A stretch of DNA of 45,021 nt from Deltaproteobacteria bacterium HGW-Deltaproteobacteria-22 (GTDB lineage: Bacteria; Myxococcota_A; Polyangia; HGW-17). A model generated the notes under the pieces. That model did not search any database. It was given only the letters and a program-made list of their open reading frames with translations, and was not told the DNA's origin. The position numbers and the translations under genes were made by a program. Shown here piece by piece: positions 1 through 25,863 of the stretch (position 1 is its first letter; each line of letters begins with the position of its first letter). Where the stretch lies: positions 1-45,021 of the forward strand of contig PHAZ01000015.1 in the NCBI GenBank assembly GCA_002841825.1, given 5' to 3'.

Positions 1-3000
1 GTGCGCACGGAGACGGCGACCGGCACGCAAATCGACACCATCTCAAGTTCGGTCGTGATCAACAACGATGGAAACAGCGTGGGCGGAACCGCACTGAGCG
101 CCGGCGAGGTGCTGGCGACAGCCAGCGAGACGCTGACCGTGGCGGGCAAGAGCAAGATCGATTCGGCAGGCGACGCAACGGGGCGCGACATTGCGCTGAC
201 CGGCGACGGCGCTTTCCTGCGCGTTGCCGAAGGCAGCCAGGTCAAGGTCAGCCGGAGCGGCGTCAATCGGCTGCAAGGCGATCTGACTGTCGAAAGCACC
301 GCCGCCGTGGCTGGCGAGTCGCTGGTCTTCGATGCGACGCGCGGCAATGAGCTGGCCGGTATGGTTTCCCCGGGCCGCCGCCTGGCCGACGGTTCGCGCG
401 ACGGGGGCGGGGCGGTGAGTATCGGTGCCGGCCGGATCAACGTGGTGGCCGACAATTCGGCGCCAACTGACGGCGTCACGCTGAAGAAGAGCGATCTGGA
501 GCGGTTCGCCGATGTCGATCAAATGCGTTTGATCAGCTATTCGACGCTCGACCTCTACGGCGACGCGACGCTGGGATCGGCCACGCTCAATGAACTGGTG
601 ATATCGGCCGCCGGCATTGCCGGGCACGGCGCTGATGGCAGCCAGGCCACTATTTCCGCCAAACAGGTGGCGTTCGAGAATGCCAATCCCGAGGGCGCCC
701 AATTCGTCGCCGGAGCAACACTCGGCAGCGGCAGCCTCAAGGTGGATGCCGGGCAGATCACTTTCGGCAACAACGCGACCGAAGCGATGCGCAAGGCGGG
801 TAGCAGCGGCTTCAAGATGGCCGGCTTCGATGCCGTCGAACTCAAGGCGAGCGGTGACCTGGCGTTTGCCGGTCGCGGTGTGACGCGCGTTGAGAGCGGC
901 CGGGTCGATGCCAACAGCCAGCCAGTCGAAACCAAGCTCGACATCATCGCGGGACGCGTGACCAGCACGAGCGGGGCAGATCATGTCCTGACGGCTACCG
1001 GTGATTTGTCTGTCCAGCGCCATGCGAACGCGACTGCTCCGACAACGACCGCTGGTCTTGGCAGCAAACTGGAACTGGCTGGCAAGAGCGTTGCGGTGTC
1101 CGGTCACATCGACCTGGCCGCCGGTGATCTGACCTTGGCCGGTGCGCAGGGTGTGACGCTGGACAACGGCGCGCTGGTCAGCGCCGCCGGTGCCGCCGTG
1201 AAGTTTGCCGATACCACGGCTTATGCCTCGGGCGGCCGCATCACGCTGAAATCGATGGAGGGCGATGTCCGGATCAACGAAGGCGCCATCGCTACCGTTT
1301 CCGCCGATGCCGGCGGCGGCAATGCCGGCACGATCCGCCTGTTGGCCGAAAAAGGCACGGTCGATGCCGCGGCGAAAACCCTGCGCGGCAATGCGGCCAA
1401 CGGCAAGACTCAGGGCAGCCTGGTGGTCGATGCAGCGTCGGTTGCGCTTGATCGCCTGGCCAATGCGGTCGTTGATCAATCCGGCAACCGCCATCTCAGC
1501 GAAAGCTGGGATGTCCGTCGCCGGGTTGGCGATCTTGTCCTGACGGAGCAGATCAAGGCACATCAATTCCAGTTGTCGGCTGATGCCGGCAACATCGATA
1601 TCTACGGATCCGTCGATGCATCCGGCAGCAAGGGCGGCAGTATCGGCCTATACGCCAATCGGGTGAGCGATGCCGATGGCTCGAATGCCGTCGGTGGCAA
1701 GGTTGAACTGCATGCCGGCAGCGCCCTCAAGGCCAATGCTACCGAAGTGGTCGGTGGTGGCGATGGCACGGCAGGCGAGGGCGGTTCGGTGACCGTCGGC
1801 GTCAGCGCTACGAAGGCCGAGGACGAATTGGCCACAGAGATCCATTTCTCGGGCGCCAAGGATGGCCAGGCAGCCGCCAGCATCGATGTGTCGACGGCGG
1901 CCGGCAGCAAGGCAAGCGGTGGCCGCGTGACGTTCCGCGCGCCGCGCCAGGATCAACTGGGCAAGTTGGTCAGTGGCAATGGGGCCGAGATTGTCGATAA
2001 CGATGCCATGGCCGCGCTGGTGACGACCAAGAAGGGGGCGACCATTAGCGATTACCTCTTGGTCGGGATCACCAACACCGAATCGTTGGCAAACGGGACG
2101 GTGATTTCCTTCAATGCCTATGCCGCGTCGAAGGCCGAACCCACGGTGACCGTGGGCAGCAACAGCAAGGTACCGTTGGTCAACGCCGATGGCACAGTAC
2201 TTTCGGCTAATGCAATCAAGGCCGGGCAGGGGGTCGTTGCCATCTTCGATAACGGCGTCTTCAAGATATCGACGCTGGGCGAGACGGATACAGGATCGGC
2301 CAACAGGTACAAAGTGACACCGGCCATCAGCCCGCTGACGGCGGCTGATTTCCAGAACCCCGGTTATACGGTGGCATTCCGTCCGAAGAGCGCCAATACA
2401 GCAGCGTCCACGCTGGAAATCACGTCGGCCGACAAGGTAAAGACGTCGGTCGATTTGAAGAGCGCTGACGGCAGCGTACTCAAGGCCGGCGATCTTCGGA
2501 CGGACAGGTTGGTGACGGCGGTCTATACAGTCGTCGACGGCAAGGGCGAGTTCAGGCTTGTCGATGATGTGCCTCTGGCCTCCGCGCCCGTCGTCGGATC
2601 GAGTATGGCCAAGGTGAATCTGGATGGAAATGTCCAAGGGGCGGCCAGTGTTGCGCTCGAAGCGGTACGGGTGACGCGCAAGACCGGCGATTTCGTGCTC
2701 GGTACCGCCGAGCAGGCCGCGCTGCTCAAGACAGCGAGTGAGGTTTCGGCGCTCAAGGGCAGTGCTTTTGTCGACGCAGCCGATCCCGGCCAGCGCCTGG
2801 GTACGGTCTTCCGGGTGGGTGAGGAGATTCGGTCGACCGGCAAATTGCTGGTGGGCAATGACTGGAGCTTTACTGGCACTAGTGCGGCCGGAACGGTTGG
2901 CGCCCTGACGTTGCGCGCCGAGGGAGATCTGCTGGTGAGCGGTACGATCACCGACGGTTTCGTCCGGAACGGCTCGGCAAACGCCGGGGTGTCCGATATT

Positions 3001-4160
3001 TATCGCGACGCACGCGTCGGCAGCGGCGGCGATAGCTGGTCGTTCCGGCTCGTCGCCGGGGCGGATGCCGCTCAGGCCTCACCGCTGGGGACGAATGCTT
3101 CGGCCACGACAGGCAGTCTCGTTCTGGCTGACAACAAACTGATCCGCACCGGCACGGGCAGCATCGATATTGCCGCCGCGAAAGACATCCAGCTTGGCGA
3201 CCGGGCGGCGATTTATACGGCTGGTGTGACCGATACGACAGAGCTCGATGGCTTTACACCGGCTTTCGTCAATAACAACTACACGGCGAAGGGTGTGTAC
3301 TCGGCTTTCCTGACTGGCGGTGGTGACGTCTCGCTGCAGGCTGGCGGTTCGATTGAGGTTGAAAAACCTGAGCTGGCGTCGGTTTATCAGGGTAATCCCA
3401 ACGAATGGTTGATGCGGGTGGGGGGCAACAAGGACCTGCAATGGTGGTCGCGGGTTGCCTCGTTCCAGTCGGGTATTGCCGCATTCGGCGGTGGTGATAT
3501 CAGCCTGACGGCGGGCAGCGACATCAGCAATGCCATCGTGGCCATTCCAACCAGTGGTCGGGTGCCGACGGTGGATGGCGAGGCCCAGCCTGACCGGGCG
3601 TTGATCATGGGCGGCGGTGACCTGAGCGTGCACGCACAGGGTTCGATCATCGGCGGGATGCTCTATGCCGAGACCGGCAAGGTGAAGCTGACTGCCGATG
3701 CGATCAAGCCTTATGTCATCGTCACCACGAATGGCAATGGCGATCTGGTCGACAACAATTTTTACACGACGGTCGCCATCGGTAACAGCAGCGTCGATGT
3801 CGTTGGCCGGCAGGACGTCGAACTGGGCAATGTGTACAACCCCCTGTGGGCCAACACCAACTGGCTCTACAACGGCACCTATACGACGGGCGCCAAGGCA
3901 ACGTCGGGATTGGTCACGGTGACCGGCAACTACAGTGTGCGCCTGGGTACCTTTGGTGAACGTTCGGCGCTCGATGTCGTTTCACTGGCCGGCAATGTTG
4001 GTCTGAACGCTCAGGATACGGTTTACGGGGTCATGGATAGCGAGACCCACCGACTGATGCCGGCGCAGGTGAAAGTTGCGGCGCTGAATGGCGATATCGG
4101 TGGGTCGGTGGTTCAAGTGCCAGGACAGTCGGGGCAGTTGGACCTGCTGGCGCAGGGCAC
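1..4160 (+). CDS. Internal fragment of a filamentous-haemagglutinin-like (beta-helical) adhesin, 5'-truncated, fused in frame to a TPR protein; 3' boundary approximate
   Basis: Long Gly/Ala/Ser/Asp-rich translation with repeated beta-helix motifs (GSIDIAAAKDIQLGDRAAIYTAG, GGGDVSLQAGGSIEVE, GGGDISLTAGSDISN, GQLDLLAQG). Frame is open at nt 1, with no signal peptide or TPS domain in the window. Confidence 0.7.
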
Positions 4161-7100
4161 CAATCCGAAGAGGGTGTTCGAGGTCCTCGAGCCGCTGTAC
4201 CGACAGGATTCCCTCTGGGAGAGCCTGGTGAACCTGCACGAGAAATATCTGGAGTTCGTGAAGGACTCCGAGGAACGCATTACGCTCTTCAAGACGATCT
4301 GCGACCTGCAGGAAAACTACCTTCGTGATCCCGACATGGCCTTCAAGACCTGGGCCCGTGCTTTCTCGGAGGCCGAGGCCGATGTGGAGATCCAGGAGCG
4401 CCTGGAAGGCCTGGCCGCTCAGATGGCGCTGTGGCCCGACCTGACAGAGGTCTACCGCGCCTCCGCCAAAAAGCTTTCTACGCTGGCACGGTCCCAGACC
4501 GCCCAGGCCGATGATCTCAACGATCTGTCCGTGCACATCTGGCTCAAGGCCGCACGCGTCCATGAGGAGGAGATGCAGGATCCCGCCGGTGCGGAGGAGG
4601 CCAACCTCGAGGTGCTCAAGATCGACTACGAGCATTTCACCGCCCTGGAGAGCCTGGACCGCATCTACTCTGCCAATTCCATGTATCCCGAGCTCGCCGG
4701 CATCCTCGACCGTCGTGCCAAGACCTCCCAGGATTCCTATGACCGCGTGCAGTTCCTGTTCCGCCTGGCCAAGGTCCGCGAGGAGGATCTGCGCGATCTT
4801 CCGGCGGCGGTGGCGGCCTTCGAGGCCATCATCCGGGAGGAGGAGCAGAACATCGAGGCTCTCGAGGGTCTGGAACGCATCCATTTCGAGACCGGAGACT
4901 ACAAGGCGCTGTTCAACGTCTACGAGCGCATGTCCAAGGCCCTGTCTTCCGACGACGACGTGGCCGAAGCGCTGGCCCACATGGCCAAGATCGCGTCCGA
5001 TGCCCTGAAGAACCCACTGGGCGCCAAGGATCTCTGGAAGCGCGTGCTTGACCTCAAGGGCGAGGAGCCCCGCGCGCTGAAAGAACTGTCCCTGCTGGCC
5101 GAGGCCGCCCGTGACTGGGCTGCCTGCGTCGACTTCCTGAACCGCATCACCCAGGCCTCCTACGAGACCTTCGAGCAGGTGGACGCCTACCTTTCAGTCG
5201 GCCGCATCGCCTTGAAGGAGCTGGCCGATCACCGCCAGGCACTCGACGCCTACCAGTCGGTGCGCTCCATCGATCCGTCCAACATCGAGGCGTTGGAAAA
5301 CCTTGCGTTCATCTTCTCCGAGAGTCAGGCCTGGGAGGAGCTCGTTGAAGTGCTCGAGGCCCTCGTCGGGCTCGGACAGGGCAGCATGCCTGCCTCCAAG
5401 TTGCGTGCACTGTATGCCCAGATCGGCAAGATCGAGAAGGAATACCTGATGCGGTCGGACCGCGCCATCGCGGCGTGGGAAAACGTGCTTATGCAGGTGT
5501 CCGGTGACGCCGAGGCCCTTGAGGCCCTCGAGACCCTGTATACCCAGAGCGAATTGTGGACCGACACCATCCGCATCCTGGAGGAAAAGGTCCGGAACTG
5601 CCAGAAGGATCCCCAGCGGATCGAGCTGCTGTTCCAGATCGCCGACATTTATGAGACCCGGGTGTGGGACAAGGCCTCCTCCGCCAATGCCTATGGCCGC
5701 GTGCTGAAGATCGAACGGCTCCACATCGAGGCGTTCAACCACCTTGAGCGTCTGCTCCAGGATCTGAACAAGTGGAAGGAACTGACCGAACTCTACTTGA
5801 AGAAGTTTGCCGACCTCGGTGGACAGGAAGAGGAGGTCCCCGCCGAGCACAAGGCCGAAATCGTTTCCATACTGCAGCGGCTTGCCGTGGTGTACGAGGA
5901 GAAGATGTCCGACCGCGAGAACGCGTTTGTGGCCCTGTCCAACGCATTCGCCATCGCTCCGATGAATGACGTCACCGCCGATCACCTGGAGCGCCTGGCG
6001 TCGATTCAGAACAACTGGGAAGAACTCATTGAAATGTACCAGGAGGCAGTCGAAGCCGTCGAAGACCGCCTGGTCCGGTGCGATCTCCTCGTGAAGATGG
6101 GCAAGTGGTACGCCGACCAGCTTGATGACCTTGCCAAGGCCTCCGAGGTCCTCAAGCAGGCCCTGCGCCTGGAGCCCAAGTACGGGCGTGTCCACCTGCA
6201 GATGGCCGAGGTGCACCGCAAGAACCAGTCCGTCGGCGAGTACATCTCCGAGCTGCGGCTGGCGCTGGAGGTCGAGACCCGTCAGGACGTCGTTTACAAG
6301 TCCGCCATGGAGCTGGCCCGCACCTATGAGAAGGAATTCGGTGACATGGACGAGGCGATCCGCTTCTACAAGAAGGCGCACGAAGCCTCCCTGACCCATG
6401 AGGAGCCTCTTGAGGCCCTTGAGCGCCTCTACGAGAGGGGCGAGAAGTGGCGCGAACTGATCGAGATCGTGAACGAGCGTGTCGATCGCAGCACCAACGA
6501 AGAGGAGATCTTCGATCTCAAGGTGAAGATCGCGGATCTATATGACGACCGCCGCGAGCTCCCCTCCAAGGCCATCGAGGTCCTCAACGAGCTTCTCGAC
6601 GCGCATCCGGACAACCTGGTCATCATGCGCAAGCTAGAGGAACTGTACGAGAAGATCGGTGACCTGGAAGAGTATCTCGCCATCCTCGAGCGGCAGATGA
6701 CCTATCTGTCGCACGACGACGAGCGCATCCGCAAGTCACACCAGATGGCCGCCGTCTGGGAAGAACACTTCGAGAAGCCTGACAAGGCCATCGAATGCTA
6801 CGAGGCCATCCTGGCGATCAGCGACAAGGACGAGCGTTCCTATCAGAACCTCGCAAGGCTGTACCGCCAGGAGAAGAAATGGACCGAGTACATCGAGGTC
6901 ATCTACCGCCACATCTACACCAAGCATGATCCGAAGGAACGCGTACGCCTGTACAAGGCAGCCGCCGAGGTGCTGGAAAAACAGCTCAACGAACCCGAGC
7001 GTTCCATCGACGCCTACATGGCGGTGCTCGATGACGACGCGATGGACATCGACGCACTGACGGCGCTGTCCCGCCTGTACGAAATCCAGGAAGACTGGGA

Positions 7101-9675
7101 TCGCTGCATGGACGTCTCGGTCCGCCTTGTTGATCTGATCAGCGACCAGAACACCAAGGTCGACCTGTATTTCCGCATCGGCAAGATCTCCGAGGATTTC
7201 CAGCACAACCCATCCGAGGCCGAGCGCCTTTACGCGGAAGCCCTGGCGATCAATCCGTCCTTCGTGCCCGCCCTGAAGAAGCTTTCGAACATCTACGGCG
7301 ACCGCCACGACTGGCTCAAGGCGTCCAAGATGCTCGAGGTCGCCCAGACCCATACCGCCAACGTCGTCGACAAGGCCGGCTACCTGTATGATGGCGGCGT
7401 GATCCGCCTCGATCACCTCGATGACGCCGAGCGTGCCGCCGAGCTGCTCGAAGCCTGCCTGGATCTCGATCCGGAGCACGTCGACGCTGCCCTGCGCTAC
7501 ACGGACATCCTTTGGGATCGCCAGCGCTACGAGGACATGTTCCCGCATCTCCAGATGCTGGTGCGCAAGCTCGAGGCTGCTTCGGCCGACCGGGATCTCA
7601 TGGCGAAGGTTTACTTCCGCTATGGTCGATCCGCGGAGGCCCGCAAGGAGCTTGAGAAGGCCCAGAAGGCCTACTACAACGCCTACCAGATTGAGAAAAC
7701 GTCGCTGCCGGTGCTGCAGGGCATGGCTTCTGTCTGCTATCAATTAGAGCAGTGGGAGCAGGCATTCAAGCTTTACAAGCAGATTCTGGTGCATCCGCAG
7801 GCCGAGTCCGACCACGAGCTGCAGACGGAAATCTACTACAAGCTCGGCGCGGTCCACTTCAAGCGCAACGAACTGATGAAAGCCCAGAACCTCTACGAGA
7901 AGGCCCTTGACAACAATCCGGGTCACCAGCCCACGCTGCTGGCCATGGTCGAACTGTACGAGAAGGAAAACAACTTCAAGGCGGCCGCAGAGATCAAGGG
8001 GCGCATCGCCGCCAGTCTTTCGGGTGAAGAGCAGGTTGAGTTCATGATCGGCCTGGCCGAATACTTCCGCGACAAGGTGATGGACAACGCCAGCGCCATC
8101 AAGGTGTTCGAGGACGCCTACGCGATCGATCCGAAGAACACGCTGATCATCCATGAACTGATCGAACTGTACCAGACGACCGAGCAGTGGAAGAAGGTCG
8201 CCAAGAACATGATCCTGCTCGCCGAGATGGAGTCGGATCCGAGCATCCGCTCCAAGATCTGGTACGCCGTCGGCGGTGTGTTCCGCGAGTACATCAAGTC
8301 CCTCGACGATGCCGTCGACTACTACAACCGTGCGCTCGATGACGATCCGAACAACCTGAAGGCGTTCCAGCACACAGACGAGATCCTGACCAAGAAGAAG
8401 GACTGGAAACTGCAGGAGCGCAACTACCGCAAGATGATCAAGCGCGTCATGGAAAACCAGCCGGAGAACCATGGGCTGCTGACCACCCTGTGGCACTTCC
8501 TCGGCGAGATCTACCGTACACGCCTCAAGGACTTCAAGGCAGCCATGGGCGCCTTCGAAACCGCCATCGCGCTGGATCCCTCCGCCTCCAACCGTCACGA
8601 GATCCTGGCCGAGCTCTACGAACTGGCCGGTCCTGACACCTATGACAAGGCCATCGCCAAGCACCACGAGATCCTGGACCGCAACGCATATAACCAGGAG
8701 AGCATGAAGAAGTTGTACCGGCTCTATCTGGAGACGCGGAACTACGACGCCGCCTGGTGCATGTCGGCAGCGCTGACCAACCTCAAGGTCGCGGAGGCCG
8801 AAGAACTGGAGTTCTACAACCAGTACAAACCGCGCGGTTTCGCCCAGCTCAAGCAGCGTTTCACCACCGACATCTGGGCCAACATGCTCACGTCCTCGAT
8901 GGAGGATCCGGCCATGCGTCACCTGATGGCTGCAATCTCGATCCCCATCACGACCCTGAAGGGCCGGCCGACCAAGAACTGGGGCATCAACCGCAAGAAC
9001 CGTCAGGAGCCTGCCGGAGAAGGTCCGCTGTTCAACAAGATCTTCTTCTATGTGCTGGATCGCCTCGCGGTCGAGGCGCCTGAACTGTACCTGCTGCCCG
9101 ATCACCGCGCCGGCATGCAGCACGGCGTCATGATCGAGAAGGGACAGCGCATCCCGTTCGTGACCGTGGGACAGGAACTGCTCCAGGGTCACATGGAAAA
9201 GGATCTGGCCTTCATGGTGGCGCGTGAACTGACCTACATGCGGCCGGAATACTACCTGCTCAAGCACGTTTCGAGTGTCGGCGAGCTGCGCGCGATGGTC
9301 TTCGGCTCCATGCGCCTGGTCAACGCCCAGATGCCCCTTCCCGTGGATGCGGGCGTCCTGCAGCAGACCGCAGCCCAGCTGGCACCCGTGCTGCCACCGG
9401 CCTCCAAGGAGGCGCTGATTGGACTCACGCAGAAGATGGCCGCCACGAACTACACGCCCAACGTGGATTCCTTCATCCAGGGCGTGGAACTGACCTGTCA
9501 CCGTGCCGCCCTGACCCTGATCCAGGATCTGGACGTGGCCATGCTCGTGCTGCAAGCCGAACCCATGATCGCCGGCGGTCTTGGTCTTCAGCAGAAGAAG
9601 GACGCGCTGCTGCGTTTCGCGACGTCGGAAAAATTCTTCGAACTGAGGAAAATCCTCGGAGTCGCCATCGGGTGA
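4160..9675 (+). CDS. Giant tetratricopeptide-repeat protein (C-terminal ~1,840 aa), N-terminus apparently replaced by the upstream segment
   Basis: Dense TPR-type helices (AIAAWENVLMQVSGDAEALEALETLYTQSELW; AIKVFEDAYAIDPKNTLIIHELIELYQTTEQW) followed by a ~300 aa non-TPR C-terminal domain; stop at 9673-9675. Confidence 0.85.
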
Positions 9676-9680
9676 ACACC

Positions 9681-9890
9681 ATGAAATACACCATATTGAT
9701 TGTCTCCCTGTTCAGTCTCGTTGCCGTCGGCTGCACCGGTGGCAAGAGCACCGGCAAGACCACCGCCGGCTCCGATCCGAAGGCGGGTGACGCCGGCAAG
9801 GTGGATCCCTCCCCGGTCAAGGATGCTGCCCCCACCGGTCCCGCATCCGATCTCTGCACCGATACCCAGTGCCCGGGAGTGGTTCGCTGA
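9681..9890 (+). CDS. Small putative lipoprotein
   Basis: ORF 9672..9890; the ATG at 9681 gives MKYTILIVSLFSLVAVGCTGGK, a short hydrophobic signal with lipobox (AVGC), then a Lys/Gly/Pro/Asp-rich tail. It immediately follows the TPR stop. Confidence 0.6.
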   Translation: MKYTILIVSLFSLVAVGCTGGKSTGKTTAGSDPKAGDAGKVDPSPVKDAAPTGPASDLCTDTQCPGVVR

Positions 9891-9971
9891 CCACCAATCG
9901 TCCATCCCCGGTGCGTTTCGCTTTTCGCACACGGGCATCACTCCCGGCCAGGCAGTACGGAGGCTTCTTCC

Positions 9972-11546
9972 ATGTCCCTTCTGGGTATCGACCAATCACA
10001 GGTAAAACGGCTGCGCGGCACTGCCGATGAAATCACCCGGCAGATCGCCCCGCTCCTGAAGTCACACACGACTGTCACCGTAGAGCGCGCCGTGCTTCGC
10101 CTGCTCGGCCTCGATGGAGTGGACCATAACCAGGTTCCTCTTCCCAACGTGGTGGTCAACCACCTGCGCGAGAAGGTCCGTGATGGCGCCTCGACGGCCA
10201 TGCTGGCGGCCATGCTGCACACGCGTGCATCGATCACGGAGGTGGCCGAACGTGTCGCCCGCGGCGAGCTGGATCTCCATCGTCTTCCGGCTGTTCCCGA
10301 GGACGAGATCCGTCACCTGGGACTGGAACTCGCCACCGAGAGCATGGAGCGCATTCAGGCGATGGTGCGAGAACGCCGTTCCCGCATGGACCGTCTGCCC
10401 GTGCGCGAACAGCCGTGGAAGTACGTCATCGTAGCAACCGGCAACATCTATGAAGACGTGGCACAGGCCAAGGCTGCCGTTCGGCGAGGCGCTGACATCA
10501 TCGCGGTCATCCGCACCACCGGTCAATCCCTGCTCGACTACGTGCCCTACGGGCCCACCACCGAAGGCTTCGGTGGAACCTATGCCACCCAGGCGAATTT
10601 CCGCATCATGCGCGCAGCCCTCGATGAGGTCGCCGAAGAGACCGGACACTATGTCCGCCTGGTCAACTACGCGTCGGGACTGTGCATGCCCGAAATCGTC
10701 GTGATGGGAGCGTTCGAACGGTTGGACATGATGCTCAATGACAGCATGTACGGCATCCTGTTCCGGGACATCAACCCGATCCGCACCTTCGTGGATCAGT
10801 TCTTCTCCCGCATGGTTGATGCGGCCGCGGAGATCATCATCAACACCGGTGAGGACAACTACCTCACCACAGCCGACGCCGTCGAAGCTGCCCACACCGT
10901 GCTCGCCTCGGACTTCATCAATGAAAGCTTCGGTCTGGCCGCCGGCCTTCGGCCCGAGCTGCTTGGCCTTGGTCACGCCTTCGAGATCGATCCCGATCTC
11001 GAGGACAGTTTCCTGCTCGAACTCTCGCAGGCTCTTTTGCTGCGTGAAGTCTTCCCCGACTCCCCGTTGAAGTACATGCCGCCGACCAAGCACATGAGCG
11101 GAGACATCTTCAAGGGGTACCTCATGAACGCGATGTTCAACCTCGCCGGCATCTGGTCGCAGCAGGGCATCCAGCTTCTGGGCATGCTGACCGAGGCCAT
11201 GCATACGCCCTTCCTGCAGGACCGCTACCTCGCGCTGCAGAACGCTGACTACATCATGACTGCCGCCCGGCACATTCACGACCAGGTCACATTCCGTCCT
11301 GATTCCCTGGTGATCCGTCGCGCCCACGAGGTGATGGACAAGACCGGCGTCCTGCTCGAGTCCGTGCGCGAAACCGGCCTCCTCCAGGCCATCTCCTCGG
11401 GCTGGTTCGCAGACATCTCCCGCCCCGCCGACCAAGGCAAGGGCCTGCTCGGTGTCCTGGAGAAGAGCGACACCTATTTCAATCCCTGCAAGCCCGTGCT
11501 GGCATCCCGGCTGGGGCTGGAGAAGGAGATTGACAAATGGATTTGA
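9972..11546 (+). CDS. kamD: Lysine 5,6-aminomutase alpha subunit
   Basis: 524 aa; family-typical stretches YVIVATGNIYEDVAQAKAAVRRGADIIAVIRTTGQSLLDYVPYGPTTEGFGGTYATQANFRIMR and INTGEDNYLTTADAVEAAHTVLASDFINE; directly followed by a kamE-like gene. Confidence 0.9.
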   Translation: MSLLGIDQSQVKRLRGTADEITRQIAPLLKSHTTVTVERAVLRLLGLDGVDHNQVPLPNVVVNHLREKVRDGASTAMLAAMLHTRASITEVAERVARGELDLHRLPAVPEDEIRHLGLELATESMERIQAMVRERRSRMDRLPVREQPWKYVIVATGNIYEDVAQAKAAVRRGADIIAVIRTTGQSLLDYVPYGPTTEGFGGTYATQANFRIMRAALDEVAEETGHYVRLVNYASGLCMPEIVVMGAFERLDMMLNDSMYGILFRDINPIRTFVDQFFSRMVDAAAEIIINTGEDNYLTTADAVEAAHTVLASDFINESFGLAAGLRPELLGLGHAFEIDPDLEDSFLLELSQALLLREVFPDSPLKYMPPTKHMSGDIFKGYLMNAMFNLAGIWSQQGIQLLGMLTEAMHTPFLQDRYLALQNADYIMTAARHIHDQVTFRPDSLVIRRAHEVMDKTGVLLESVRETGLLQAISSGWFADISRPADQGKGLLGVLEKSDTYFNPCKPVLASRLGLEKEIDKWI

Positions 11547-12295
11547 ACCTGCGCGAAATCCGTCCATACGGTGACTCCCTGTCCGACGGTGCGATGCAAT
11601 TGAGCTTCACGCTGCCCCTGCCCACAGGTCCGCTGGCCAAGGAGGCCGCCCTCCGCCTCGCCCGGAAAATGGGCTTCGCCGAAGCCGACGTGGTGCACAT
11701 GGCCGATCTGGGAGAGGGCTTCAGTTTCTTCGTGGTCTACGGAAAAACCAGGCTGTTCATCGATGCCACCGACATCACCGTGACCGCCGTGAAGACCGAC
11801 GTATGGGATCGCGCCACCTGTGATGAAAAGATTCGCGAATTGTTCGGTCGCAAACTGAAGATCGTGGGCGCCTGCATCGGCGAGGACGCCCACACCGTGG
11901 GCATTGACGCGATCATGAACATGAAGGGCTATGCGGGACACTACGGTCTGGAACGCTTCGCCATGATCGACGCGTTCAACCTCGGGGCCCAGGTGGAACC
12001 TGAGACGCTGCTTGCCCGTGCCCGCGAGAAGGACGTCGACGCCATCCTCGTCTCCCAGGTCGTCACCCAACGTGATGCTCACCTGCAGAATCTCACGCGA
12101 TTCGTTGAACTCACCGAGGCGGCTGGTCTTCGCGACCGTTTCGTACTGGTCGCCGGCGGTCCGCGCCTCGATCACAAGCTTGCGCTGGAGCTGGGTTTCG
12201 ATGCCGGCTTCGGGCGCGGCACCTTTGCCGAACATGTGGCCTCCTTCGTGATACATCATCTGGTGCAGAAGCGATCCATGGGGTCTGAAGGATAG
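11537..12295 (+). CDS. kamE: Lysine 5,6-aminomutase beta subunit (B12-binding)
   Basis: 252 aa; GEDAHTVGIDAIMNMKGYAGHYGLERF (cobalamin DxHxxG-type site and conserved Lys region); overlaps kamD by 10 nt. Confidence 0.9.
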   Translation: MDLNLREIRPYGDSLSDGAMQLSFTLPLPTGPLAKEAALRLARKMGFAEADVVHMADLGEGFSFFVVYGKTRLFIDATDITVTAVKTDVWDRATCDEKIRELFGRKLKIVGACIGEDAHTVGIDAIMNMKGYAGHYGLERFAMIDAFNLGAQVEPETLLARAREKDVDAILVSQVVTQRDAHLQNLTRFVELTEAAGLRDRFVLVAGGPRLDHKLALELGFDAGFGRGTFAEHVASFVIHHLVQKRSMGSEG

Positions 12296-12303
12296 TATTT
12301 CCG

Positions 12304-13875
12304 ATGCTGACCGTTCTCTTGTCCATCCTGGTGCTCGTGGCCTTCGCAGGCACCTTCTGGTTCTTCTACCGGCAGACCGCCGGACAGGCTGGCCGTGCCA
12401 TCGAGGAGGCTGCCGCCCGTTCCAGGGAGTTGCGCGAGGAGGCCCGCCGCCGAAGCGAGGAAGTTCAACTCAAGGCTCGCGACGAGGTCGCCCAGGTCCG
12501 CCTGGATTCCCGCCGCCAGCTCGAGGAACAGGCCCGTGAACAGGAAGAGGAGATGAACGAGCAGGAGCTCGCCCTCGAGCGCGAATCAGCCCGGGTGGAG
12601 ACGTCCACTGAGGAACTCAAAGCCCGGGAAGCCGACCTTTCCAACCGCTTCTCGGTGCTCTCCAAGCGCAACAACACCATCGCGGAGCTCAAGAACCAGA
12701 AGCGCGAGCTCCAGGCCCAGATTCCGCCCGCACTCGAGACCGCCGCAAAGCTCTCCCGGCAGGAGATGCGCGATCAGATCTATCAGCAGATGGTGGATGC
12801 GGCTGAAAACCAGGCGCAGGAAAACCTCCGGCTATGGGAGCAGATCCCGGAGTCCGACTTCATTCCCAAAGCCAAACGCATCATGGGCATCGCGATGGAA
12901 CGCCTGTCGCGCACCGAGGTTCAGGAACGACCCGCCAACTCGGTGACGCTCTCGATGTCCCAATATCAGCACATCCTGAAATTGTGCGGCGGCACCATCG
13001 AGAAACTTTCGGAACTATTCAAGATTCCGGTGTTCGCCCAGGTCGCCGAAGACGCCGTGATCCGCTTCGACACCATCGACGCGGTGAATCGCGAAATCGC
13101 CCGCCGCGTGCTCGAAAAGACCATTGAAAACAGCCGGCAGATCACCACCTGGGAGACCCTGGCAGACCTGTGGCAGAAGAAGAACGCCGAGATGGAAAAC
13201 GAGATCACCGGCTATGGGCGCAAGGCCTTCAAACTGGCTGGTCTCAAGCCCAAGGCCCATAAAGAGATCATCCAGCTTCTTGGACGCCTCTTCTTCCGCA
13301 CCTCCTACACCCAGAACCAGTGGCTCCACACGATCGAGGCTGCCCAGCTTGCCGGCCTGATCGCCGCCGAGATGCATCTCGACGTCGAGCTTGCCCGCCG
13401 CGCAGCGCTCCTGCACGACATCGGCAAGGCCCTCACCCACGAGGTCGAGGGTTCCCACGCCGTCATCGGCTGTGAGCTTGCCGCCCAGTATGGTGAAGAG
13501 TCGGTGGTGGTCAACGCCATCGGCGCCCATCACGGCGAGGTCGGGAACGAGTCGATCTACGCGAGCCTGGTGATGGCAGCCGACGCCATGAGCGGTGGAA
13601 GGCCGGGAGCCCGCCGCGAACAAATCGAGACCTACTTCGACCGGATCAATGATCTGGAGCGTGCGGCGAGAGCCTTCCCCGGCATCCAGGAGGTCTTTGC
13701 CGTCCAAGCCGGCCGCGAGCTTCGCGTGCAGGTCGATTCCCAGCGGCTCGACGACGAGCGAACCATGGCGCTGGCCGCCGACATCTCAAGGAAGATTTCC
13801 CAGGAAGTTACCTTCCCCGGCCAGGTGAAGGTCACGGTGATCCGCACCTTCACTGCCCAGGAGATCGCCCGATGA
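12304..13875 (+). CDS. RNase Y-like protein: N-terminal TM, long coiled coil, degenerate KH-like region, HD domain
   Basis: HD motif LLHDIGKALTHEVEGSHAVIGCELAAQYGEESVVVNAIGAHHGE, PGARREQIETY and PGQVKVTVIRTFTAQEIAR match RNase Y. The KH GxxG loop is not conserved (QHILKLCGGTIEKL). Confidence 0.85.
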   Translation: MLTVLLSILVLVAFAGTFWFFYRQTAGQAGRAIEEAAARSRELREEARRRSEEVQLKARDEVAQVRLDSRRQLEEQAREQEEEMNEQELALERESARVETSTEELKAREADLSNRFSVLSKRNNTIAELKNQKRELQAQIPPALETAAKLSRQEMRDQIYQQMVDAAENQAQENLRLWEQIPESDFIPKAKRIMGIAMERLSRTEVQERPANSVTLSMSQYQHILKLCGGTIEKLSELFKIPVFAQVAEDAVIRFDTIDAVNREIARRVLEKTIENSRQITTWETLADLWQKKNAEMENEITGYGRKAFKLAGLKPKAHKEIIQLLGRLFFRTSYTQNQWLHTIEAAQLAGLIAAEMHLDVELARRAALLHDIGKALTHEVEGSHAVIGCELAAQYGEESVVVNAIGAHHGEVGNESIYASLVMAADAMSGGRPGARREQIETYFDRINDLERAARAFPGIQEVFAVQAGRELRVQVDSQRLDDERTMALAADISRKISQEVTFPGQVKVTVIRTFTAQEIAR

Positions 13876-14405
13876 AGGCTGGCCGCTTCACTGGAAAAGC
13901 TGCTCTGGACAGCCGTATGGACGTGCCTCGCATCCTTCTTGCCGTCTCGGGCTTGTACCTTCTGGTGGTGCTCGGACAACTCATGGCACGCGTCCTGGGC
14001 TATGTACGCCACCAGACCTGGGACATCACCGACGAGGAATGGATCTGCCGGGAGAAGACCACGATGCTGGGCATCTCAATCTCCAGCCGAACGATGCGCT
14101 TCCCCGCCGGCAGCGTGGTGTTCCACTCTTCCGGTACGCTGGGGGATCCGGTGCTGCTGCTCACGGGCGCCTTCTGGTTGTTCGGTCTGATCGTATGGGG
14201 CGTTTTCCGCATCCACACGGGCATCCTGACCGGCGCACCGCTGTGGATTTTCTCCGGCGGCCTGCTCATTCTGTCCGGATTGATCGTCGACGTTGGTTGT
14301 TTCCTTCTGCACCAGCGCCTGTTCTCAAGTCAGGCCCTGCAGATAGGACTTCTCGACGGAAGCATCCATACAGTGCGGGATCCGGATCCTTCCGACTCCT
14401 TCTGA
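13872..14405 (+). CDS. Uncharacterised membrane protein (about 3 TM)
   Basis: ATGA overlap with the upstream gene; hydrophobic segments ILLAVSGLYLLVVLGQLMARVLGY, VLLLTGAFWLFGLIVWGVF, LWIFSGGLLILSGLIVDVGCFLL. Confidence 0.7.
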   Translation: MKAGRFTGKAALDSRMDVPRILLAVSGLYLLVVLGQLMARVLGYVRHQTWDITDEEWICREKTTMLGISISSRTMRFPAGSVVFHSSGTLGDPVLLLTGAFWLFGLIVWGVFRIHTGILTGAPLWIFSGGLLILSGLIVDVGCFLLHQRLFSSQALQIGLLDGSIHTVRDPDPSDSF

Positions 14406-14441
14406 AATCCCCTTTTCCGCAATTCTTGCCGCATTCAACAG

Positions 14442-14470
14442 TTGACGAGTGGGGAAAAAAAACTTACGGT
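14442..14470 (+). promoter_or_regulatory. Candidate sigma70-like promoter
   Basis: TTGACG (14442-14447), 17-nt spacer, TACGGT (14465-14470), about 60 nt upstream of the ATG at 14529. Visual match only. Confidence 0.35.
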
Positions 14471-14528
14471 TGCGCCCCGGGAAAGGTCTCGTCCATGTTA
14501 TCGACCCGTCCCCGTAGAGGAGAAACAG

Positions 14529-14954
14529 ATGTTGGACATGGCATTTGTCGAGGAGATCATTCCAGTCCTGATTGCTGAAAGCAGCCACCCGACGGTCAAG
14601 GGAATCACCCTGGCGGTCGTCTCCCAGCTCGGCTTGCGCGGACGCGCCGCCGTGGCCGCAGAGCACCGCATCCGTCCGCTGGTCATTGACGCCATCAAGG
14701 AGACTTTTGGTGATGACGAGTTCGAGGACGAGGAAGAAGAGGACGAATTCGGCGACGGCGAGGACGAGTTCGGCTATGAAAGCTTTGAAGAGGACGACGA
14801 CGACTTCGGCTACGACGACGACGATGATGATGAGACAGACGACGGCTATTTCATCGACGACGAGGAAGAAGACGACCTCGATCCAGGCTCGGATGACGAA
14901 GATGACGATTTTGACGACATGGACGGCTACGATGACGACGACGACGATGAATAA
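14529..14954 (+). CDS. Small protein with extremely acidic Asp/Glu-rich C-terminal half
   Basis: RBS-like AGAGGAGA just upstream of ATG 14529; ~60 aa ordered N-terminus (MLDMAFVEEIIPVLIAESSHPTVKGITLAVVSQLGLRGRAAVAAEHRIRPLVIDAIKETFG) then ~80 aa dominated by D/E/Y/F/G. Confidence 0.7.
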   Translation: MLDMAFVEEIIPVLIAESSHPTVKGITLAVVSQLGLRGRAAVAAEHRIRPLVIDAIKETFGDDEFEDEEEEDEFGDGEDEFGYESFEEDDDDFGYDDDDDDETDDGYFIDDEEEDDLDPGSDDEDDDFDDMDGYDDDDDDE

Positions 14955-15003
14955 CTGATCCTTCGCCCCTTCTCCCGTAGTCCGCTTTCAGGATGGAAAC
15001 AAC

Positions 15004-17781
15004 ATGAAAACCAGTCCCGGGGACAATACGTCCTGCATCCGGATTGTCGGAGCCCGGCAGCACAACCTCAAGAACATCTCGCTGGATCTCCCCCACAAGC
15101 GCCTGGTGGTGATCTGTGGACCATCTGGATCGGGCAAGAGCACGCTGGCCTTCGACATCATCTACGCCGAAGGACAGCGGCGCTATGTGGAGAGCCTGTC
15201 GGCTTACGCCAGGCAGTTCCTTCCACAACTGGACAAACCTCAGGTCGAGCGCATCGAGGGCCTGTCCCCCGCCATCTCCATCGACCAGCAGAACTCCTCG
15301 CACAATCCACGTTCCACGGTCGGCACGGTGACCGAGATTCACGACTTTCTGCGTGTGTTCTTCTCCCGCCTGGGCACGGCGCGCTGCATCCACTGCCGCA
15401 CACCGCTGGTCACACAGACCAGGGAGGAGTTGACGGACCGACTGATCGCCACCGGTCGCGGGCGCATGTTGTATCTGCTCGCTCCGTTGGCACGCCAACT
15501 CAAGGGCACACATGCTGAGTTGATGGAGAAATGCCGGCGGGAAGGTTTTTCCCGTGTACGCATCGATGGGGCCATCCTCGAGCTCGATCCCGTTCCACAA
15601 CTGAAGAAGACGTTCAAGCACGACATCGACCTGGTCATCGACCGCCTCGATCCCGGCCGGGTTTCCCGCTCCCGCGTATCGGGCTCCATCGAGCTGGCAT
15701 TGCGGTGGGGTCAGGAGACCTTCGTTGTCAGCGATCCCGCTGGCGGCGAGCGTCTGGTTTCCACCCAGGCACGCTGCCTGGAACACGACTTTTCCGCGCC
15801 GTCCCTCTCCCCGCAGTTGTTCTCTTTCAACAGTCCCCTGGGCTACTGCAACACCTGCTATGGCCTGGGCACCGTGAGTTTCCTCTCGCCGCGACTGATC
15901 GCCCCCAATCCGCAGTTGTCGCTGCAGCAGCGGGCCATCGCCCCCCTGCCGGAAAACTGGTGGACGCGCCAAAAGGAGAGCTTCGGGCAGGTCATGAAAC
16001 GCTACAACTTCACCACCGGAACACCGCTGGGTGAGCTCACGGAGGAGGCCTCCTCCGTTCTGTTCCAGGGCGATCAACGGCTGGGCTGGTCGGGTGTGAT
16101 CACCCTTCTCGAGCACAGCGCCCGGTATGGCGGCGCCTTCGCGGAGAGCCTCTCAGGGTACAAGGAGACCCGTCCCTGCCCAGCCTGTGGAGGGGGACGA
16201 CTGAACCCGGTGGCCGCTGCGGTGGTAGTCCGCGACAAGAGCCTGGTGGACGTCGAAAACCTGCCCGCAGAGGCAGCCCTGGCATGGTTCTCCAACCTGC
16301 GGTTCTCCGATACCGAGGCCCCCGTGGGCGACCCGCTCGTGGAGGAAATCGCTTACCGGCTTCGCTTTTTGTGCGAGGTCGGGCTGGGATACATCCACCT
16401 GAACCGCACCGTGTTCACACTCTCGGGCGGCGAGTCCCAGCGAATCCGGCTGGCTGGCCAGCTCGGCAGCGGGCTTGTGGGGGTGACCTATGTCCTCGAC
16501 GAGCCCAGCGTCGGCCTTCACCCCCAGGATCACCAGCGGCTCCTGGGAACACTGATGCAGTTGCGCGACAGGGGCAACTCGGTGATCGTCGTGGAGCACG
16601 ATCCGGGAACCATCCACGCCGCCGATCATGTCGTCGAACTTGGCCCGGGTTCGGGTCGCTACGGCGGCGAGCTCTCCTTCGAAGGCACCGTGAATGAGTT
16701 GATGAAGGCCGATACACTCACGGCCCGCTACCTGCGTGGCGAATGTTTCGGCGTCGCGCGGATGCAGCGACCGGTCCCCGAGTCCTTCATCCGGCTACTC
16801 GGAGTGACCACCCACAACCTGAAGAATGTTGATTTCTCCATGCCACTGGGTCGGCTCGTCTGCGTCACGGGCGTCTCGGGCTCGGGCAAGAGTTCGCTGG
16901 TGGTGGACACGCTCTACAAACACCTGGCGCTTCGACTGGGCCTCGGCGTGGAGAATCCCGGTCAACTCACCGGTATGGAAAACGCCGCGGCCGTGACGCG
17001 CGTCGTGCTCATCGACCAATCCCCGATTGGCCGCACCCCGCGCTCGAATCCGGCCACCTACACCAAAATATTCGACGAGATCCGTGGCATCTTCGCCGGG
17101 CTTCCGGAATCCCAAGTACGCGGATGGGCACCCGGCCGATTCAGTTTCAACGTGCGTGGCGGCCGCTGCGACAAGTGCGACGGCGACGGCCAGATCCGCA
17201 TCGAGATGCACTTTCTGCCCGACGTGTTCATCACCTGCGAGGCCTGCGGAGGCCTGCGCTACAATCAAAGCACCCTCGAGGTGAAGTTCAAAGGACGCAA
17301 CATCGCGCAGGTGCTGCAAATGACCGTGGGTGAGGCCATGGACGTGTTTTCCGCTCACCCGTCGCTGATGCGCAAACTGAAGGTGCTCTCGGACGTGGGC
17401 CTGGACTACCTCCAGCTCGGGCAGTCCGCGACCACGCTCTCCGGCGGGGAAGCACAGCGGCTGAAGATCTCGCGCGAGCTCGGCAAGCGTGATCTGCCAG
17501 GCACGATCTACATCCTTGACGAGCCCACCACCGGGCTTCACATGCAGGAGGTAGGCATGCTCATCGATGTGCTGCACCAGTTGGTGGAACGGCAGGCCAC
17601 CGTCATGCTCATCGAACACAACCTCGAGGTCATCGCCTCGGCCGACCACGTCATCGATCTGGGCCCCGCCGGCGGCGCCGCCGGGGGATACATCCTCGCC
17701 GCGGGGTCCCCCTCCGAGATCATGTCCAACCCCGACTCGATCACCGGGCGCTGGCTGGCGGATCGCGAACACCGCAAATAA
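15004..17781 (+). CDS. uvrA: Excinuclease ABC subunit A
   Basis: 925 aa; two Walker A motifs (GPSGSGKSTLAFD, GVSGSGKSSLVVD), ABC signatures (LSGGESQRIRLA, LSGGEAQRLKIS), zinc-finger pairs (CNTC...CPAC; CDKC...CEAC). Confidence 0.97.
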   Translation: MKTSPGDNTSCIRIVGARQHNLKNISLDLPHKRLVVICGPSGSGKSTLAFDIIYAEGQRRYVESLSAYARQFLPQLDKPQVERIEGLSPAISIDQQNSSHNPRSTVGTVTEIHDFLRVFFSRLGTARCIHCRTPLVTQTREELTDRLIATGRGRMLYLLAPLARQLKGTHAELMEKCRREGFSRVRIDGAILELDPVPQLKKTFKHDIDLVIDRLDPGRVSRSRVSGSIELALRWGQETFVVSDPAGGERLVSTQARCLEHDFSAPSLSPQLFSFNSPLGYCNTCYGLGTVSFLSPRLIAPNPQLSLQQRAIAPLPENWWTRQKESFGQVMKRYNFTTGTPLGELTEEASSVLFQGDQRLGWSGVITLLEHSARYGGAFAESLSGYKETRPCPACGGGRLNPVAAAVVVRDKSLVDVENLPAEAALAWFSNLRFSDTEAPVGDPLVEEIAYRLRFLCEVGLGYIHLNRTVFTLSGGESQRIRLAGQLGSGLVGVTYVLDEPSVGLHPQDHQRLLGTLMQLRDRGNSVIVVEHDPGTIHAADHVVELGPGSGRYGGELSFEGTVNELMKADTLTARYLRGECFGVARMQRPVPESFIRLLGVTTHNLKNVDFSMPLGRLVCVTGVSGSGKSSLVVDTLYKHLALRLGLGVENPGQLTGMENAAAVTRVVLIDQSPIGRTPRSNPATYTKIFDEIRGIFAGLPESQVRGWAPGRFSFNVRGGRCDKCDGDGQIRIEMHFLPDVFITCEACGGLRYNQSTLEVKFKGRNIAQVLQMTVGEAMDVFSAHPSLMRKLKVLSDVGLDYLQLGQSATTLSGGEAQRLKISRELGKRDLPGTIYILDEPTTGLHMQEVGMLIDVLHQLVERQATVMLIEHNLEVIASADHVIDLGPAGGAAGGYILAAGSPSEIMSNPDSITGRWLADREHRK

Positions 17782-17871
17782 AGCCAGAAATCAAACTGCA
17801 GAACACGCAGAAGAACAGATTGTGTTTGAATGTGAAAAATCCTGCAACCGCTGTTTCGCGGACTCGATAAT

Positions 17872-18279
17872 ATGAGCATGGACGACTCCCCCAACTTCGA
17901 CAGGATCCGGCTGGGCCAACTCGGCGAGGATCGCGCCGTCGCGCTGTATCGAGACTGGGGCTATGAGATCATCGCCCGCAACGACTCCTTCCCTCAACTC
18001 GGCGAACTGGACTTTGTGGCCCGAAAGGACGGACTGATCGCCTTTGTGGAGGTGCGCACTCGCGCCACGGACTCGGGCGGACACCCGCTGGAGTCGATCA
18101 CCCCGGCCAAGCGCTCAAAGATCATCCGTGCCGCGATCCTTTTCTGGGACCGCATGGACCAGACCGAGCGCGTGTCGGTCGAGGAGCTCCGTTTCGATGT
18201 GGTCGCCGTAGAAGAACGGCGCTACGGACTGGCGATCACGCCAGTGTTCGGAGCGTTCGAGATGGATCGCGTATGGTGA
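17872..18279 (+). CDS. yraN: YraN/UPF0102 family predicted endonuclease
   Basis: 135 aa; LGQLGEDRAVALYRDWGYEIIARNDSFPQLGELDFVARKDGLIAFVEVRTR. Confidence 0.85.
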   Translation: MSMDDSPNFDRIRLGQLGEDRAVALYRDWGYEIIARNDSFPQLGELDFVARKDGLIAFVEVRTRATDSGGHPLESITPAKRSKIIRAAILFWDRMDQTERVSVEELRFDVVAVEERRYGLAITPVFGAFEMDRVW

Positions 18280-18398
18280 CAGCACCTCCGGACGAACCGG
18301 TGTCGCAGGTGAAATCTCGCTGTACTCCGACCTTTTTCAATGACATAACAGGCCATGCAGAGAGCATCCCACCAGCATCCGGGTTTCGTGTTTTCCCC

Positions 18399-18986
18399 AT
18401 GAGATGGAGGTCCTATTTCCTCGCCACGACGACCATTCTCCTGCTCCGGACCGTGGATCTGTTCCTCACCTGGGTCTATACGCCGGACCTTGAACATGAG
18501 TGGAATCCCATCATCTCGTTTCTGGGTATTTCCTGGCCCGGTTTCATCCTCTCCCAGGTGCTCGTCTTCAGTTTCATCGCCGGCTCGATGTTATTCTATT
18601 TCAGGAGGGAGCCGACCGTTTCGGCACCCAACGGCCTCTCCTTCCAGGATTTCACTTACTTCTATTTCTTCGGTGAGCTCAGGCCCTGGAGACGGCGTTT
18701 TCTCAGTTTCCCGCACAGACTTCGCCCCCATCTGGTCTTCAACGGGTTTTTAATGATGACCATGTCCATGATCGTCTCCACCTTTGCGATCGTGAACAAT
18801 CTTCTGCTGATCGCCGGGGTGCAACGCTATGTCCTTTTTCTGGGCTCGCACTACCGGATTTTTTTCCCCGCCTTCTTCATCACGGCGGGACTGGGATCCA
18901 GTGATGGCCCCCGCAGACCGACCCCGCCCCTGCCGTGGAAAACGACCGGCACGGATCTCAGCGGGGAAGCTCTGGCATCCACGTAG
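18399..18986 (+). CDS. Uncharacterised multi-pass membrane protein
   Basis: Hydrophobic segments (YFLATTTILLLRTVDLFLTWVY; WPGFILSQVLVFSFIAGSMLFYF; NGFLMMTMSMIVSTFAIVNNLLLIAG). Start is uncertain; the ORF track extends to 18273. Confidence 0.55.
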   Translation: MRWRSYFLATTTILLLRTVDLFLTWVYTPDLEHEWNPIISFLGISWPGFILSQVLVFSFIAGSMLFYFRREPTVSAPNGLSFQDFTYFYFFGELRPWRRRFLSFPHRLRPHLVFNGFLMMTMSMIVSTFAIVNNLLLIAGVQRYVLFLGSHYRIFFPAFFITAGLGSSDGPRRPTPPLPWKTTGTDLSGEALAST

Positions 18987-19818
18987 GCGGAGCAAAGAAA
19001 TCAGCATCACCGAAGATCGGCGAGGACCACGTGAGGCGGGAAGCGTGCAGAAGCATCGGACCCGATCCGGTGGCCTCACCGACCGGATACCAGGGGTCTC
19101 CCTGAATCGGCGCGCCCAGGTGTGCCAGGTGCACGCGGATCTGGTGCGTGCGGCCTGTGTGCAGGCGCAGTCGGACCAACTGGCGGTCCTCGGGCAGCGG
19201 CATGACGTCGAGGATCTGGGTGCGTGCCGGGCGGCCGTCATCGCGAACCACAAAGCGCTGGGGTCGGTCCGGGTGCGGACCGATGGGAAGATCGATCATC
19301 GTCGTTCCCAGATCGCAGCGCCGCGTCATGGCGACATAGATCTTGGCGCAGGCGTCCGAACGAAGCAGTTCCTCGAAACCCGACAGGATCTTCGGATCCC
19401 TTGCGAAGGGCAACAACCCCGAAGTGTGAAAATCCAGCCGCGAGACGATCCAGAGTTGACCCAGGAACTTCTGCAGCTCGTTGACCAACGAGTGATCACC
19501 CAGGGCCGTGGGGGCCGTGGCCCAGCCCGCGGGCTTGTTCACGACAACATAGCGCGGCTCCTGGGCAAGAATCCAGTCACGAATGTCACCATCGCCCGGG
19601 GAAGACTCCGGCAACAAAAAGGGAGCCTTCACCACGGAGCCCGCATGGACAAGCCGGGAGGCCACCTTCACCCGCTGGCGGTCGACGAACACGGCACCTG
19701 CCTCGATGAGCTTGCGCGCGAAGCGACGCGACACGCGCGAAGCCATGATCTGGTCCAGCCTCAGGCCTGCGAGCTGGCCGGCGACGTGAATCTCGAAAAA
19801 ATTCTCGTTGTCCTTCAT
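18958..19818 (-). CDS. RluA/RluD-family RNA pseudouridine synthase
   Basis: N-terminal S4-like part, catalytic-type SRLDFHTSGLL, VRLRLHTGRTHQIRVHLAHLGAPIQGDPWY. Start chosen at MKDNENF (ATGA overlap with the upstream gene). Confidence 0.88.
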   Translation of the reverse strand: MKDNENFFEIHVAGQLAGLRLDQIMASRVSRRFARKLIEAGAVFVDRQRVKVASRLVHAGSVVKAPFLLPESSPGDGDIRDWILAQEPRYVVVNKPAGWATAPTALGDHSLVNELQKFLGQLWIVSRLDFHTSGLLPFARDPKILSGFEELLRSDACAKIYVAMTRRCDLGTTMIDLPIGPHPDRPQRFVVRDDGRPARTQILDVMPLPEDRQLVRLRLHTGRTHQIRVHLAHLGAPIQGDPWYPVGEATGSGPMLLHASRLTWSSPIFGDADFFAPPTWMPELPR

Positions 19819-21467
19819 TTGCGTTTCTGCCGGGTCGAGCCAAAAAAGTATTTGATGAACATCAGGCCACAGAGGGCCGCAACGGAGAACAGCACCGCGG
19901 CGCGGGAGTCCTCTCCACGATCCTCGAAGCGCCAGCCCGACCACAGGAAGAACAAGCCAAGCGATGCGAAGATGCCCTCGTGAACCCATGCGTGAGCGGT
20001 CTTGACGAAGTACTCAGCGTCAGCCAGCCGCAGCTCGATCTCGCCGTAGGTCAGGCGGGAGAGGACGCTGCGAAGCTCCGAGGGCAGTGCCAGCGCGTTC
20101 TTGGCAAGCTCGCGCATGGCCTGAAGGGCCAGCGACGAGGGGTCCAGTCCGTAGGAAATCGAGAATCGCCGAAGGTGCGGCAGGAAGACCTCCATCACAT
20201 CGAGCTCGGGGGCCATCACGGTGACCAGCCCCAGAATCTGCAGCAGGGTGCGCTCGAGCATGACCCACTCCCGCGGGATGTGGAACGAGGCGGCGATGTC
20301 CTTGAGGCTGATGTTCATGCCCTTCAGATCCTGAAGGTTCTTCAGCCCGGAGTCCGCGGAGAAACGAAGGTTCCCGAGCCGCAGGTTCTCGATGCCGATC
20401 TTCTCCTGGAACTGGTCATGGAAGTATGCCACCACACGGTCGTACACACGCGGGTCGGCGCTGGTCGGGATGAAGCCCATCTTGCGCATGGCCGCCACCA
20501 AACCGGCGGTGTCCTTGCGCACTCCAGCCTGTACGAAGGCGACCATGCCCTCACGCATGCGGTCGGAAATGGCCGAGCAGGCGCCGAAATCCATGAAGCA
20601 CAACCTCGGGCCTGGCTGAACCCAGACGTTCCCCGGATGAGGATCGGCGTGGTAAAAGCCGTGCTCGAAGAACATCGCGGCGTAGGTCTCCACCAGAAGC
20701 GACGCGGCCTCCTCGGGATTGACTCCGATCTCCTTCAAACCGGCGACCTGGTTGATCTTTACGCCTTCAACATACTCGGTGACAAGCACCTTCGAGGTGC
20801 ACCAATCAAGCACAGGCTCAGGTGCGGTCACCGTTGAGCTGCCTGCGAAGTTCGCCCGAAACCGCTGGAGACTCTCGAGCTCCAGGGTGAAGTCTACCTC
20901 CTGCTCAAGGATCGTCTTGAGCTCCTCATAGATGCGCACAAGCTCGGGATTGGGAAAGAACCACCCGATCAGGCGGACAATGACATAAAAGGCCCGCATG
21001 TCCTGCGCAAACACCTTTTCGATGCCCGGATACTGGATCTTCACCGCCACGAGGCGGCCGTCGTGAAGCCGGCAACGATGCACCTGCCCCACGGAGGCCG
21101 CCGCAATCGGCCTTTCCTCGAGCTCGGCGAGGACCTCCTCGGGCGGGCGTTTCCACTGCTCGGCCAGTCGCGTGCGCATGAGGTCCGTTGACACCGGATC
21201 CACCTGGTCCTGCAGGGCTGCAAACTCTTCGCGGAAGGCCGGGGGCAGCACGGTGGCCATGATCGAGATCAACTGCCCCACCTTGATGTACAGCCCTCTC
21301 TGTTCCATGAACAATTGTCGCAGCCGAGATGCCGTGCGCCTGTGCAGTTGCTCGAGGTTTTCTGCCGAGTCCGCCGTGCGCCGGCCGCGTGCGAGCGCGA
21401 TGCGATAGCGGATCAGGATCCAGAACACGACCCAGAGGGCCCGCCAGGATCGCCAGGTAAGCTTCAT
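19815..21467 (-). CDS. ABC1/UbiB (AarF) family atypical kinase, C-terminal hydrophobic segments
   Basis: KVGQLISIMATVLPPAFREEFAALQDQV, PIAAASVGQVHRCRLHDGRLVAVKIQYPGIEK, FYHADPHPGNVWV, LCFMDFGACSAIS. Confidence 0.9.
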   Translation of the reverse strand: MKLTWRSWRALWVVFWILIRYRIALARGRRTADSAENLEQLHRRTASRLRQLFMEQRGLYIKVGQLISIMATVLPPAFREEFAALQDQVDPVSTDLMRTRLAEQWKRPPEEVLAELEERPIAAASVGQVHRCRLHDGRLVAVKIQYPGIEKVFAQDMRAFYVIVRLIGWFFPNPELVRIYEELKTILEQEVDFTLELESLQRFRANFAGSSTVTAPEPVLDWCTSKVLVTEYVEGVKINQVAGLKEIGVNPEEAASLLVETYAAMFFEHGFYHADPHPGNVWVQPGPRLCFMDFGACSAISDRMREGMVAFVQAGVRKDTAGLVAAMRKMGFIPTSADPRVYDRVVAYFHDQFQEKIGIENLRLGNLRFSADSGLKNLQDLKGMNISLKDIAASFHIPREWVMLERTLLQILGLVTVMAPELDVMEVFLPHLRRFSISYGLDPSSLALQAMRELAKNALALPSELRSVLSRLTYGEIELRLADAEYFVKTAHAWVHEGIFASLGLFFLWSGWRFEDRGEDSRAAVLFSVAALCGLMFIKYFFGSTRQKRK

Positions 21468-23919: not shown

Positions 23920-24830
23920 CAGCGGGGGCAGTCGCGCGTGATCAGTTCCTGCGCCCTTGGCAGCGCCGGGGAACCGGGAAAATCCTTCCTGATGGTCTCC
24001 AGGCGGGCCTTGGCCTCCTTGCACTTTTTGGTCTTGATCAACTCGCCCAGTTCGCCAAAGGCCTGTGATACGCGGATCTTGTCGCGCAGCAGTTTGGCGC
24101 TGGCTGCGTTAAGCTTCTCCAACTCGCCCACGTGAGTCAGCGCTTCATCCCACTTCTTCTGGTACGAAAGCACGATGGCGAGCTTGGCATGCGCGATCTC
24201 CTTGTATTTTTCCTGCTGTACCAACTTGTTCAGCATCTCGGTAGCCCGGTCGTAGACCTTCTCCGAGGCATACAGATCTCCCAGGGAATACAGGGCCGGA
24301 CCAAAGTCAGGCTCGCGTAACAGCGCCTCGGCGTACATCTTTTTCGCGTTCTCAAGGTCCTTCTTCTCCGCGTAGATGCCACCGAGATTGTACCACAGGG
24401 CCGCGGCCTTCGGGAACTTCAGCATGCCATCGCGCAGCACCTTCTCGCATTCATCGAACTTCTGAAGGTAGAACAGCGTCTCGGAAAGGCTGATCGTGAG
24501 TTCCAGGGATACCACGCCGGTCTTGCGAACCTTCTCGAAGCTCACCAGGGCAGCCTCGTATTTCTTGAGGTTGAAGTGCGCGAAACCCTGGAAAAACAGA
24601 AGCTTCGGATGGTCCGGATGCGTGGCCAGCTCCCGTTCGACGGCCGCCAGCGCGTCGTCGTATTTTCCTTCGCCGAGGAGTTTCTGCACCGCCTCGAGGT
24701 TTGGCGCAGCCAGGGTCAGTTTCGCAATCGGCTCGGGCTCCGGATCCCTCTGCGGCGTAGTCTTCTTCGGCTCCCGGCATGAAAGAGTCCCCAGACAAAG
24801 GGCAATTGTCATCAATAATTGAACACGCAT
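23919..24830 (-). CDS. TPR-repeat lipoprotein
   Basis: MRVQLLMTIALCLGTLSCREPKK (lipobox LSC), then TPR motifs (AALWYNLGGIYAEKKDLENAKKMYAEALLREPDFGPALYSLGDLYASEKVYDRA). Confidence 0.85.
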   Translation of the reverse strand: MRVQLLMTIALCLGTLSCREPKKTTPQRDPEPEPIAKLTLAAPNLEAVQKLLGEGKYDDALAAVERELATHPDHPKLLFFQGFAHFNLKKYEAALVSFEKVRKTGVVSLELTISLSETLFYLQKFDECEKVLRDGMLKFPKAAALWYNLGGIYAEKKDLENAKKMYAEALLREPDFGPALYSLGDLYASEKVYDRATEMLNKLVQQEKYKEIAHAKLAIVLSYQKKWDEALTHVGELEKLNAASAKLLRDKIRVSQAFGELGELIKTKKCKEAKARLETIRKDFPGSPALPRAQELITRDCPR

Positions 24831-24848
24831 GACAGACCTCCGAAAGAT

Positions 24849-24930: not shown

Positions 24931-24934
24931 TCTA

Positions 24935-25837: not shown

Positions 25838-25863
25838 GAGTGGAAAATCCGGGTTGAAAGAGT

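Follow-up and report, generated by a model that had tools for sequence, protein, structure and literature searches.

How does a single open reading frame come to pass from an FHA-like beta-helix into a giant TPR protein? The question arises at the very start of contig C52, which was analysed over its entire 45,021 bases (the window), such that position 1 marks the end of the contig and no gene start. The frame at 1..9675 on the plus strand is open across its whole length, encodes 3,224 aa and runs off the contig start. The first-pass annotation had described a 3,224-codon frame crossing a sharp FHA beta-helix to TPR switch; both frame and switch are real, and the joint can now be narrowed to 4141-4160. 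From the sequence comparisons described below, the adhesin-TPR fusion is very probably (about 97%) a metagenome assembly chimera within the contig, and there is almost certainly no such fusion protein. The features on which the argument turns are as follows.

1..4160, plus strand: foreign contig tip, an internal fragment of a two-partner-secretion FHA-family adhesin gene from a Rhodocyclaceae-type betaproteobacterium (MAG matches)
4141..4160, plus strand: the joint, a 20-nt stretch GACCTGCTGGCGCAGGGCAC common to both source genes and in the same frame (sequence comparison)
4141..9675, plus strand: 3' half of the native giant TPR protein gene (TPR Pfam models; congener identity)
4161..45021, no strand assigned: native, undisturbed part of the contig (single blastn alignment)

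Two sources in one frame

The two parts of the translation behave differently in a Pfam search. Residues 1388-3224 (1,837 aa) match TPR or TPR-like repeat models only, and for the beta-helix-like residues 1-1387 themselves Pfam gives no match. At the DNA level the 20-mer at the joint is found complete (20/20) in two betaproteobacterial loci, L022 and L023, and at 19 of 20 positions in the TPR gene of a congener, G002; it reads DLLAQG in both proteins. Leftward of 4141-4160 the sequence matches the betaproteobacterial gene alone, rightward the congener TPR gene alone, with complete divergence on either side, the left limit of the overlap being taken from congeners since the native bases of this strain just left of 4141 are unassembled. 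The two genes happen to share one phase over the 20-mer, and this is why the reading frame survives the joint.

Composition changes at the same place. In tetranucleotide usage, 1-4140 correlates at 0.19 with the remainder of the window, compared with 0.63-0.77 for every other 4.1-kb block, and at 0.62 with the flanks of the betaproteobacterial locus L018. A shift from gat/gaa to gac/gag codons had earlier been read by eye, and counting confirms it: left versus right of the joint, GAT makes up 0.65 versus 0.38 of Asp codons and GAA 0.43 versus 0.31 of Glu codons. The share of AAT among Asn codons falls from 0.45 to 0.09, GC3 rises from 0.74 to 0.84, and His and Gln codon choice shifts at the joint too. 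Thus k-mer and codon comparisons of the left part with the rest both switch at the joint; GC content and GC skew alone give no clear mark there.

The betaproteobacterial fragment

A scan of genome contigs found six MAG relatives of the left half, at 85-98% DNA identity, with titles naming Betaproteobacteria (HGW-4, -6 and -18), Azonexus, Rhodocyclaceae and, in one case, Gammaproteobacteria. The HGW genomes were recovered from groundwater at the Horonobe underground laboratory, and borehole 08E140C01, which appears in the titles of two of these relatives' records, is among the boreholes sampled (PMC5520028). No relative of the beta-helix adhesin half was found in the 38 genomes related to the window's own, and that genome itself contains no other sequence of the L018-type donor locus beyond two matches of about 40 nt.

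The FHA-like identity that had been proposed for the left half is borne out by a complete gene in one of the relatives, L019. This gene carries all three domains of two-partner-secretion FHA-family adhesins by Pfam (ESPR, PF13018; TPS, PF05860; DUF3739, PF12545). The window fragment is internal and has none of the three, the ESPR and TPS secretion domains being absent from it in a Pfam search. Its GTG at base 1 is an internal adhesin codon, which by arithmetic from positions falls near residue 2,153 of the 4,085 residues that make up the full-length L019 protein. Since the window begins at a contig end, the adhesin stretch is a foreign contig tip. In the donor loci L018, L019 and L022 the FHA frame extends beyond the joint position to a common C-terminus of its own, and none of the three (0/3) goes into TPR.

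Positions 1-4157 are 98.0% identical to HGW-Betaproteobacteria-4 (L018) overall, and this identity is unevenly spread. Exact tracts to L018 occupy 187-2126 (1,940 bp), 2267-2816 (550 bp) and 3013-3983 (971 bp), and exact tracts to HGW-Betaproteobacteria-6 (L022) occupy 1-212, 2083-2304, 2845-3062 and 3958-4160; the list of mismatches shows 2795-2843 to be exact to L022 as well. The final 203 bp before the end of the joint are exact to both HGW-Betaproteobacteria-6 and HGW-Betaproteobacteria-18. The two sets of tracts tile 1-4160, with the single base 2844 in neither, and adjoining tracts overlap by 22-50 nt where the source switches. This patchwork reflects either collapsed strains or real recombination between the two betaproteobacterial MAGs. 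The strain mosaic was not accepted as stand-alone proof of misassembly, since natural recombination between strains could give the same pattern.

The native TPR gene and its missing 5' half

Positions 4141-45021 are collinear with G002:C87:12006-53019 in one blastn alignment of about 41 kb at 95.6% identity. In G002 the gene spans 3,517 codons between stops and consists of TPR sequence over its whole length; across the joint position it has ...HDAARQGMEDLLAQGTNPKRVFEV.... The TPR half is 98-99% identical in protein to the TPR genes of two congeners, and it has matches in all 39 genomes searched (its own and 38 related), most of them spanning nearly the whole query. Upstream of the joint, G001, G002, G003, G004 and G006 all carry TPR homologues of the native 5' half, as do more distant genomes of the class. 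An FHA-TPR architecture was found in none of the 38 related genomes.

If the right half is native, where is its own beginning? A search of the same genome located the 5' half on G000:C324:1-4968 (minus strand), where 1,656 codons are 98% identical to G002 and stop exactly at base 1 of C324, a contig of 67,687 bases. In G002 coordinates the end of C324 is 51 nt short of the joint. Because the 5' half ends at base 1 of C324, the real TPR gene is split between C324 and C52: the two parts make up one native gene of about 3,500 codons and are separated by roughly 51 nt, and the adhesin stretch occupies the place where the C324 sequence belongs. The right half resembles the giant TPR proteins found in the class to which the window belongs, with ordinary divergence only, and its 5' half has merely been displaced to C324. 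This location of the native 5' half is the decisive result for a chimera.

Giant TPR proteins occur in all 38 related genomes, with 11-48 matches per genome in all, many of them weaker, and some of these proteins are several thousand codons long. In the window's TPR protein (4162-9672), the last few hundred residues look non-TPR by eye.

Origin of the join, and the remainder of the contig

The contig thus joins sequences of two lineages, each of which continues natively elsewhere, through a 20-nt overlap common to both sources, and the TPR gene's own 5' half lies on a different contig. These results support the earlier judgement that an artefact was most likely, and the fault is a misassembly inside the contig, not a misbinning of the whole contig. 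The best account is that the assembler, extending C52 leftwards through the giant TPR gene, would have left the true path at the 20-nt stretch, which is also present in the adhesin gene of a betaproteobacterium represented by the near-identical groundwater MAGs. The path would then have run about 4.1 kb into the adhesin gene, alternating between two strains, and the true continuation would have broken off as C324. About 30 exact 20-mers are expected to be shared by chance between two genomes of about 4 Mb (4.4e6 x 4e6 x 2 / 4^20), so the link at the joint needs no homology or special cause. The 20 nt of overlap might have reflected the minimum k used in assembling the HGW genomes, but this idea was rejected: those MAGs were assembled by IDBA-UD with mink 40 (PMC5520028), so the overlap is not simply the smallest k of that run, and this counts against the assembler explanation.

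Alternatively, adhesin DNA from a betaproteobacterium could really have been inserted into this strain's TPR gene, by a very recent horizontal transfer that produced an in-frame fusion. This would account for the open frame, and a foreign insert would likewise be compatible with a native 5' half that breaks off 51 nt away. However, the foreign DNA comes from the interior of a gene and runs to the contig end. It contains no mobile-element gene, nor the ESPR and TPS export domains with which the full-length adhesin gene begins. It is pieced together from exact tracts of two MAGs, joins at a 20-nt coincidence and is missing from the relatives. We consider such an insertion highly improbable, and equally so its variant in which a neighbour's adhesin fragment inserted recently in part of the population to form a transient fusion.

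Short shared sequence at a junction is also typical of template switching, and the 20-mer would fit a chimera made during library preparation or amplification and then assembled faithfully. For 4.1 kb of foreign sequence that alternates between two strains at shared runs of 22-50 nt, however, a route taken through an assembly graph is a better fit than a single molecule, and there is very little chance that the join arose in the library. Biologically, library and assembler chimeras are the same artefact. We infer that the join was the work of the assembler, not of library preparation, and that the same sample also contained the betaproteobacterium, yet the unreality of the fusion gene is unaffected by either point.

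Chimeric contigs from metagenome misassembly, as treated in the GUNC paper (PMC8201837), likewise hold two source genomes in one contig; the source lineages differ here, with no difference of substance. The joint in C52 happens to keep the reading frame, and a gene caller would therefore miss it, recording a 3,224-residue adhesin-TPR fusion and crediting the genome with a surface adhesin that it lacks. The significance is one of quality control only: C52 should be trimmed at about 4140-4160, removing the first 4.1 kb, and C324 and C52 treated as linked neighbours.

Two other regions of the native contig may be mentioned. At 33156-35123, two long open frames of 567 and 653 aa, both lacking a Pfam match, overlap on opposite strands. 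Just downstream of the TPR gene, 9972-12295 holds a gene for the D-lysine 5,6-aminomutase alpha subunit, adjoined by the gene for its B12-binding partner subunit (both by Pfam).
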